A stretch of 64,000 bases of DNA, from positions 62,001 to 126,000 of the forward strand of contig CAIKHO010000007.1 in the NCBI GenBank assembly GCA_903827245.1, given 5' to 3'. This document shows positions 38,271-41,200 of the stretch, one piece after another. This stretch comes from an uncultured Opitutia bacterium (GTDB lineage: Bacteria; Verrucomicrobiota; Verrucomicrobiia; Opitutales; Opitutaceae). Within the stretch, counting starts at the first letter, position 1. Each line of letters opens with the position of its first letter. Under the pieces are notes generated by a model that had not been told where the DNA came from, did no database searches, and worked only from the letters and a program-made list of their open reading frames with translations. The translations under genes and the position numbers were made by a program.

Positions 38271-41200
38271 GGAAGGTTGTTCAGAAAGGCAATAATCTCA
38301 CGCAAACGTAGAAGCGGTTTTGGGGCGGTCAACCTTGGAAACCGGGTGCCGACCTGCACCCAGTCGTCGCGGCGGCCGCTGTTGCGCAGGCACTTGAGGC
38401 GACTGGACTCTGTTTCGACGGAAACGAGGCCCTTTTGTTCCGCCCGCACCCGGATTTCGGTCACGAGCAGCAGCGCCTTCACCTCGTCGCCGAATTTGCC
38501 GAAGCGATCCCGAAGGTCGGCCTCGATCTGCTTGAGCTGCGCCGGGCTCTCCGCCAGCGCGAGCTTCCGATAGAAATCGATGCGCAACCGCGTTTCGCCG
38601 AGGTACGAATGCGGAATGCGGGCCTGGATGCGGGCGACCTCCACCGCGCCGCTGGCATCGTGCTCGGCGTCGCGCACCGCGGTGTAGCTGTCGTGATAGC
38701 GATGGCGGCTGTTGTCGCTGCCGGAGGAGCCCTCGCCGATCGAGACAAAATCGAGCTTCACGGCGGCGCGGACCGCCGCCGCGTGCTTGTCGCCTTTCAG
38801 CCGCGCCACGCTCTGGCGGAGAAGCTGGCAATAGAGCTCAAAGCCGACGCCGACAATATGGCCGCTTTGCTCGGCGCCGAGGAGGTTGCCCGCGCCGCGC
38901 AGCTCCAAGTCGCGCATGGCGATGCGGAAGCCCGCGCCGAGCTGATTGTGGGTGCGCATGGCGGTGAGGCGCTGGCGCGCGACCTCGATCAGGCGCGTGT
39001 GGCGGTGGAGCAGCAGGTAGGCATAGGCCTGGTGGCGGAAGCGCCCGACGCGGCCCCGCAACTGGTAGAGCTGCGAGAGGCCGAAGCGGTCCGCGCCCTC
39101 GATGATGATCGTGTTGCAGTTCGGGATATCGAGGCCGCTCTCGATGATCGTGGTGCACACGAGCACCTGGTATTTCCCCGCGACGAAATCGGTCATGGTG
39201 CGCTCGAGTTCGTTTTCCTCCATCTGGCCGTGACCGACGCCGATGGTCAGGCCGGGCAGCAGCTCGCGCAGGCGGCTGGCCACGAGGTCGATCGTCTGCA
39301 CGCGGTTGTGTAGGTAGAACACCTGGCCGCCGCGGCGGATTTCGTGGCGGATGGCATCGACCACGATCTTCTCGTCGTAGGTCTTGACGATGGTCTGGAT
39401 CGGGTGGCGGTTGGTCGGCGGCGTCTCGATCACGCTCATGTCGCGGGCTCCCGTCAGGGCCATGTAAAGGGTGCGCGGGATGGGCGTCGCGCTCATGGAA
39501 AGCACCTCGACCGTGGCGCGCATGCGCTTGAAGACCTCCTTGTGTTTCACGCCGAAGCGCTGCTCCTCGTCGATCACCACGAGGCCGAGCTCCTTGAAGT
39601 GCACGTCGGACTGGAGCAGGCGGTGCGTGCCAATCAGGATGTCGACCTGCCCGGCGGCGGTCGCCTCGAGGATCGTCTTCTGCTCGGCGCGGGAGCGAAA
39701 GCGGCTGACCATGTCGACGGCGATGGGGTAGCCCGCCATGCGCTCGCGAAAGGTGTTGAGGTGCTGCTGGGCCAGCACGGTCGTGGGCACGAGGATGGCG
39801 ACCTGCCGGCCGCCCTGCACGGCCTTGAACGCGGCGCGGATGGCGACCTCCGTCTTGCCGAAGCCGACATCGCCGCAGATCAGCCGGTCCATCGGGCGGC
39901 TGCGCTCCAGGTCGGCCTTGGTCTCGTTGATGGCGCGGAGCTGGTCGGGCGTCTCGGTGAAAGGGAAGGAGGCCTCGAATTCCTTCTGCCAGGTGTTGTC
40001 CGGCGGGAAGCCGTGCCCGGGCTGGGCCTCGCGCGCGGCTTGGATGCGCAGCAGTTCGCCCGCGAGGTCGATCGTGGCGCGCTCGGCGGCCTGGCGGGCT
40101 TTTTCCCAGCGGCCCGAGCCGATGCGGCCGAGCTGGGGCTTGCTCTTGCTCAGGCCGACGTAGCGGCTGATCAGGTGCGACTCCGTGAGCGGCACGTGCA
40201 GCGTCACCTTGTCGTCGAACTCGAGCGAGATGACCTCGCGCAGGCCCTGGCTGGTGTCGAGCTTGGTGAGTCCGCGGTAGAGCGCGATGCCGTGCTGGAG
40301 GTGGACGACGAAGTCGCCCTCGACCAGCTCGGAGAAATCGAGCAACTGGTCGATCTGGGCGCGCTGGGCGATGGCGCGCGGGTTCAGCACCGGGCGGCGG
40401 GCGCGTTGACGGCCGAAGATCTCGGTCTCGGTGATGAAAACCAGCCCCCGGGCCTTGGCGGGTAAAATGGCCCAGGGTAAATTGGGCGCGGGGCGGACGA
40501 CGGCGGTGACGCCAGGATCGTCCGGCGGCGCGGCCGGGGTTTGGCTGCCGAAGGTGATCCTGAATCCCTCGTTCAGCGCTCCGCGCAGAAAGACCGGCTT
40601 GAGCTGCTTCAACGCCGGGTCGTCCGCGAGGATTTCCCGGGCCCGCTGCTCCTCGCCTTCCTTGGAGACGGCGACGGCCACACCATAGCCCTCCGCCTGC
40701 CAGACGGCCGCCTGGCGCAGAAACCGGCGCCGGGCCTCTTCCTCAACCTGGAGGCGTTCCTGGGCCACCAGCGTTTCCCCGGGATAACTGCGATGATGCA
40801 CGAGGCTTTCGGTGTTCCACGTGACCTCGTTTTCCGCGCCGTCGAACAACACCGAGGCCTCGTCGAGGTCGCTGATGCCAAAACTGGCCGCGCATTTGGC
40901 CAAAATTGCCGGTAGGGCGCGGACTCCGTTCCGCGCCGGGTCCGCGTTTGGGTTTTGCTCGGCCGGAACGAGATTATCCGCTTTCGGCGAGGCAGCATAT
41001 GCCGGGGTGATTGCCTGCGGGTTGTCATCTAAGGTCTGCCCGGCGCGGAGCGGAGTCCGCGCCCTACCGGGATCCGAGTCGTCCGCGAACAGGTTGAACT
41101 CCTCCTCCAGCGAGGCGGACTCGACGAAGACGAGATGCGTGTGGGGCGAGAGATAGTCGGCGATGCCGGTTTTCGAGGGATCGAGCTTTACCCGGGGCGA

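Follow-up and report, generated by a model that had tools for sequence, protein, structure and literature searches.

An in-frame pair of inverted GTAG-type REPs in mfd of an Opitutaceae bacterium, and its altered counterpart in a sister species

Introduction

What is a palindrome doing inside the reading frame of a DNA repair gene, and to which class of element does it belong? These questions are raised by mfd of an uncultured Opitutia bacterium (Opitutaceae), which we analysed in a 64,000-nt stretch of its genome (contig CAIKHO010000007.1, positions 62,001 to 126,000; the window herein). An earlier note on this DNA described a mobile palindrome that makes new protein sequence in an essential-type repair enzyme, and took it to be an independent Verrucomicrobiota counterpart of the Rickettsia palindromic elements. 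The label essential-type is doubtful, as mfd is dispensable in the model bacteria in which this has been tested.

In-frame GTAG REPs were published in 2013; they are most numerous in Opitutus terrae and are frequent in repair genes, including uvrA and DNA ligase, and the main text of that study makes no reference to mfd (Di Nocera, De Gregorio and Rocco 2013, PMC3733652). The same authors treat the Rickettsia elements RPE-4 and RPE-6 as CGTC repeats, a class for which there is no dedicated transposase (PMC3733652).

Results

The palindrome in mfd consists of two GTAG-tagged hairpins

The host gene was identified as mfd by profile search (TIGR00580, 940.7 bits versus a cut-off of 800); the encoded protein is complete, with UvrB_inter, RID, DEAD, Helicase_C and TRCF domains in the same type of search. 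As the earlier note had reported, two 32-nt arms (40909-40940 and 41039-41070), complementary at 31 of 32 positions (97%, one mismatch) and separated by 98 nt, lie within the mfd frame, and the insert is translated as new sequence in a repair protein (Table 1). The note had also given the element as exactly 54 codons. While the 162-nt span is in frame, this figure depends on where the ends are cut: counted from GG to CC the unit is 158 bp, and the net gain over the shortest Mfd orthologues is about 50 codons (131 versus 81 aa in the compared region).

Table 1. Features of the mfd locus, in window coordinates
Feature	Position	Strand	Description
mfd (transcription-repair coupling factor)	38267..41860	-	1197 aa, frame open through the insert
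REPIN (inverted REP doublet)	40909..41070	.	162 nt, encodes Mfd residues 264-318
REP unit 1	40912..40937	+	GTAG 40912-40915, stem GGCGCGGA 40916-40923, loop CTCCGT 40924-40929, stem TCCGCGCC 40930-40937
REP unit 2	41042..41067	-	GTAG 41067-41064, stem GGCGCGGA 41063-41056, loop CTCCGC 41055-41050, stem TCCGCGCC 41049-41042
Spacer	40941..41038	-	98 nt separating the two arms; reads QTLDDNPQAITPAYAASPKADNLVPAEQNPNAD in translation, without a second copy in the genome

The finer unit of the palindrome is the single arm, each arm being a hairpin of its own with a GTAG tag, an 8-bp stem and a 6-nt loop (GTAG-GGCGCGGA-CTCCG(T/C)-TCCGCGCC). Folded as single-stranded DNA, the 162 nt reach -58.3 kcal/mol versus a shuffle mean of -35.2 (z = -8.3), and none of 200 shuffles was as stable. 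Direct reading of the REP places a stop codon (TAG, out of GTAG) in one of the six frames only, and a REP insert of suitable length is therefore likely to stay open.

The arms belong to a dispersed REP family

The genome (3.55 Mb, 97.4% complete, 91 contigs) was surveyed for REPs by pattern searches and fetched stretches, with computational gene calls. The REP head GGTAGGGCGCGGACTCCG was found 52 times at no more than two mismatches, versus 0 matches for a reversed-pattern control, which bears out the proposal of a mobile palindrome with further copies elsewhere. Our catalogue comprises 28 inverted pairs, mostly 71-158 bp long, and 8 single units; 32 of these 36 copies are not internal to an ORF, the mfd copy being among the four exceptions. 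Most copies keep the GTAG tag, and the 8-bp stem-loop, which lies within the 6-9 bp typical of GTAG REPs, is kept among them. The stems co-vary across the 52 units with a standard loop: one position is C-G in 27 and G-C in 13, with others in the remainder, and the next is G-C in 27, C-G in 11 and T-A in 3, the changes being chiefly CG, GC, GT or AC at two adjacent positions that are matched on the opposite side. Beyond this genome, the head was found 37 times at no more than one mismatch in a sister species (G002 herein) and in 31 of 120 Opitutaceae genomes. No Rfam family matched the mfd element at gathering score, two sub-threshold chance matches being all that was returned.

Since the arms are REPs with a 5' GTAG tag, dispersed copies number 52 versus 0 in the control, and inverted pairs that can form one hairpin prevail, mostly outside genes, the mfd palindrome is a REPIN made of two GTAG-type REPs. 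The same observations bear on whether the palindrome was instead formed on the spot, through slippage or a local duplication-inversion within a GC-rich linker and without any mobile element. The Mfd linker is variable in length and of low complexity across the whole genus, and the mfd spacer has no other copy in the genome, as might be expected of such an origin. However, both arms belong to a family whose several dozen copies lie at unrelated loci and have the GTAG tag and the stem conserved, and inverted pairs of the same REP also occur intergenically. As the dispersed copies already contradict it, we regard an origin in place as barely credible.

The insertion site in relatives and its predicted structure

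The REPIN reading places the insertion before the split between the window species and G002, whose Mfd proteins are 90% identical. At the same site G002 mfd carries an altered, long-loop REP (..GGCGAAGGAGGAAGTCCGCGCCCTACC, ending GTCCGCGCCCTACC in the same frame). Because G002, which was assembled separately, has a REP at the matching codon, we rejected an assembly artefact. When bounded by the same landmarks, the linker measures 131 aa in the window species, 119 aa in G002 and 106 aa in G001, and 81-99 aa in most of the other Opitutaceae genera compared; one aligned genus has 109 aa through an expansion of another kind (G012). No REP was found at this site in the other genera compared, and among named GTDB genomes with readable mfd linkers only the G002 record has an mfd-type REP there. 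Within this genus, the linker of G001 was already expanded, without a recognisable REP. Alignment with relatives had been proposed as a check on the insert, and in most orthologues from other Opitutaceae genera the approximately 50 residues are missing; their segment is much shorter and not a homologous one of equal length, while the sister species keeps a decayed REP.

In an AlphaFold model of Mfd residues 1-482 (mean pLDDT 86.5), confidence falls to 44-52 over residues 261-310, which are flanked by helices 248-261 and 315-322, in agreement with the surface loop that the note had expected. Since an otherwise confident model drops chiefly here, the site appears to be a tolerant surface loop, and the insert is predicted to be an added disordered one. 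The loop sequence is not conserved between the two sister species.

The same Mfd loop of G005, which belongs to another genus, contains GGTGCCACCGGCGTCCCCCCCGTGGGC in frame, a degenerate copy of the dispersed palindromic repeat GGTGGCACGGGCGTCCCGCCCGTGG. The repeat GGTGGCACGGGCGTCCCGCCCGTGGGC has 9 matches at no more than three mismatches in the G005 genome (control, 0). Like the mfd REPIN, it is dispersed and palindromic, with one degenerate copy in frame in the same Mfd loop, but it is unrelated in sequence and shows no GTAG tag.

One insertion or two

The mfd spacer is longer than in most REP pairs. In a search of 29 genomes it matched only itself in its own genome and gave weak partial matches elsewhere, and its comparison with the other spacers of that genome showed no overall similarity above what chance would give (64 of 300 shuffles attained the best score, 21). 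As the spacer is long and unlike the others, the element may have brought in less than the full 162 bp. The two REPs might thus have entered mfd separately, the 98 nt between them being largely native linker or a later expansion. In keeping with this, G002 has a REP at one side only, immediately upstream of which the two species share GCGGACCCGGCG, and both G001 and G002 have native-looking Mfd linkers of similar composition. On the other hand, doublets are the prevailing unit in the genome, and at the end beside one REP the mfd spacer (CAGACCTTAGAT) is similar to its counterpart in the copy within a SNF2-family helicase gene (CAGACTTTGGAT). The mfd insert peptide (GRARTPLRAGQTLD...PARNGVRALP) is close to that of the SNF2-family copy (..IPLAAGQTLD...PARSGVRALP), and both read AGQTLD in the same frame, which, given the resemblance of the spacer ends, points to one doublet. 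We consider two separate insertions unlikely, though worth keeping in mind, and favour the arrival of a single REPIN.

A candidate mobiliser in the sister species

In G002 an ORF of 148 aa (locus L120, 1399-1842) lies between two perfect inverted mfd-type REPs (at 1362 and 1879). Its product matches the REP-associated tyrosine transposase (RAYT) model NF047646 REP_Tyr_transpos at 87.4 bits (cut-off 80) and contains HVH and YIRQNPVRAGLV motifs. This gene is the likely mobiliser of the mfd-type REP. Known TnpAREP binds and cleaves single-stranded REPs, and the GTAG tag helps recognition and the choice of cleavage site (PMC8266576); by analogy, the G002 RAYT may bind and cleave the mfd-type REP in the same way.

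A RAYT flanked by the same REP, a REPIN hallmark, was thus found in the sister species only. The window genome has no Y1/RAYT transposase with PF01797 or NF047646; as that assembly is 97.4% complete in 91 contigs, the gene is either absent from the assembly or lost. Since genomes with REPs can be without the REPtron (PMC3733652), a genome lacking a RAYT of its own may still hold REPINs. Y1 transposase genes are present in 107 of 120 Opitutaceae genomes. When RAYT flanks were inspected in 11 other genomes, a REP-RAYT-REP layout was seen in G054 alone (locus L117, 1339-1932), with a different REP, GTAGGGCGGGGTCTCCC, which represents a second REPtron type in the family.

Intragenic copies and turnover of REP sites

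According to a gene call based on codon usage, the 4 of 36 copies inside genes of the window genome lie in mfd, mutL, a SNF2-family helicase gene and a Rad3/DinG-type helicase gene. The mutL host (TIGR00585, 510 bits) carries its REP doublet in the MutL interdomain linker, and this doublet is common to the window genome and G002. Another doublet, from the same REP family, is read in frame within the corresponding linker of G005 MutL (locus L325, 2206-2279; GRAATPLAAG...GAESTPYL), and in the Rad3-type helicase a REP is found at about the same place in the window genome and in G128. In four other genomes (G044, G082, G128 and G042) the intragenic hosts are PurL, MiaB, RlmB, a GH20 enzyme, HrpA and TPR proteins, together with one Rad3-type helicase. 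Repair and helicase genes are therefore prominent, but not exclusive, among REP hosts.

With mfd left out, such genes are 4 of 11 hosts, which would be a clear excess if they made up about 4% of coding sequence. As this background is an assumed figure, and the mfd copy was our starting point and not a sampled one, we refrained from calling this a firm enrichment; the excess could still reflect linker content and gene length. The Mfd insert could nevertheless be functional, with REP insertion in repair genes being selected or targeted, through modulation of repair or mutation rate or a preference of the RAYT. All four intragenic copies in the window genome, the recurrent MutL and Rad3-type sites and the same repair-gene bias in other species (Di Nocera 2013, PMC3733652) are in line with such a role. 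However, hosts in the four other genomes are mostly not repair genes, the Mfd loop differs between sister species, and tolerant linkers account for the pattern without selection. A functional or targeted insert is consequently improbable in our estimation. The prominence of repair genes is most simply explained by the tolerant loops and linkers of large multidomain repair proteins.

REP sites appear to turn over between the window species and G002. For about 5 of the 36 sites, mfd and mutL included, the fetched G002 set shows a REP at the corresponding position. This set was composed of copies at no more than one mismatch together with the loci of mfd, mutL and SNF2, and diverged copies common to both species may therefore be missed. 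The SNF2 gene of G002 has an empty site. Two further loci of the window genome are of interest in themselves. At one (contig C88, 33263 and 34967; L072), two REPINs with the same left flank follow two adjacent ORFs of 450 aa, apparently copied along with a tandem gene duplication. At the other (contig C70, 19466-19699; L069), the spacer of a 234-bp REPIN encloses an additional hairpin (GGAGCGGCTTTATGCCGCG...CGCGGCATAAAGCCGCTCC), probably the product of one repeat inserting into another.

Other palindromes in the window

Two other palindromes lie near mfd. One, at 43460-43557, is a purine/pyrimidine-strand palindrome with 30-nt arms that are 100% complementary (ATCTTTCTCTTTCCTCTTTATC...), located between two ORFs that by eye resemble ABC-2 type transporter genes. 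Its core GAAAGAGAAAGATAA occurs again both at 30593-30626 and at 54624, with 6 matches across the window where 0 were expected, and since the core recurs, the palindrome represents a second repeat family. The other, at 41861-41952, is imperfect, with 39-nt arms that are 82% complementary, and lies in the intergenic space that separates mfd from its rnc-like neighbour; among the fetched loci, its core had no other exact copy.

Discussion

Our analysis suggests that the palindrome in mfd is a non-autonomous miniature transposon, a REPIN of two inverted GTAG-type REPs, which a RAYT of the HUH family would have placed in the gene, presumably via single-stranded DNA as for known TnpAREP. The insertion would predate the separation of the window species from G002, and its target would have been a surface loop that connects two helices of the UvrB-like N-terminal region of Mfd. 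Because the REP pair carries no stop in the mfd frame and its net length is in frame, the protein would have remained functional while acquiring a loop of some 50 disordered residues. This loop now seems to drift, G002 retaining one altered REP only, and the insert probably has no function of its own. Taken as a whole, this account of insertion by a RAYT before the split, followed by tolerance as a disordered loop, is very probably correct. That REP doublets recur in the same Mfd, MutL and Rad3-type loops through a real bias of targeting or selection, modulating host repair, strikes us as a long shot.

The element resembles the Rickettsia palindromic elements in that a palindrome lies in frame in a conserved gene and is translated while the host protein is kept. 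It differs from RPE-4 and RPE-6, which have a CGTC tag and no dedicated transposase, in being GTAG-tagged and in that G002 has a RAYT with this REP on either side. The proposal of a new Rickettsia-like class was therefore set aside in favour of the REP/REPIN class (PMC3733652), a separation that is drawn by tag and transposase. In short, the mfd insert works like a Rickettsia palindromic element but is a REPIN by tag and transposase.

Closer parallels are the GTAG REP dimers of Opitutus terrae, with which it shares 6-9 bp GTAG hairpins, inverted dimers, in-frame location, the prominence of repair genes, the bacterial family and a RAYT (PMC3733652). Compared with these, the insertion described here is common to two species, is decaying in one of them and is modelled as a disordered loop. 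With the REPINs of Pseudomonas fluorescens (Bertels and Rainey 2011, PMC3116915) it has in common an inverted REP pair with a spacer, dispersal and a tie to a RAYT. Those REPINs are essentially extragenic (PMC3116915), whereas the mfd copy is translated, no RAYT was found in its own assembly, and copies are far fewer.

In-frame REPs in repair genes have thus been known since 2013, and what is added here is mfd, with mutL of the same genome, as further published-type REP-decorated repair genes, together with a two-species comparison. The sister species offers evidence on how a REP insertion is acquired, tolerated and eroded. As the same Mfd and MutL loops carry repeats in several genera, a bias of insertion can be told apart from tolerance, and the suggestion made in 2013 becomes testable in this family.
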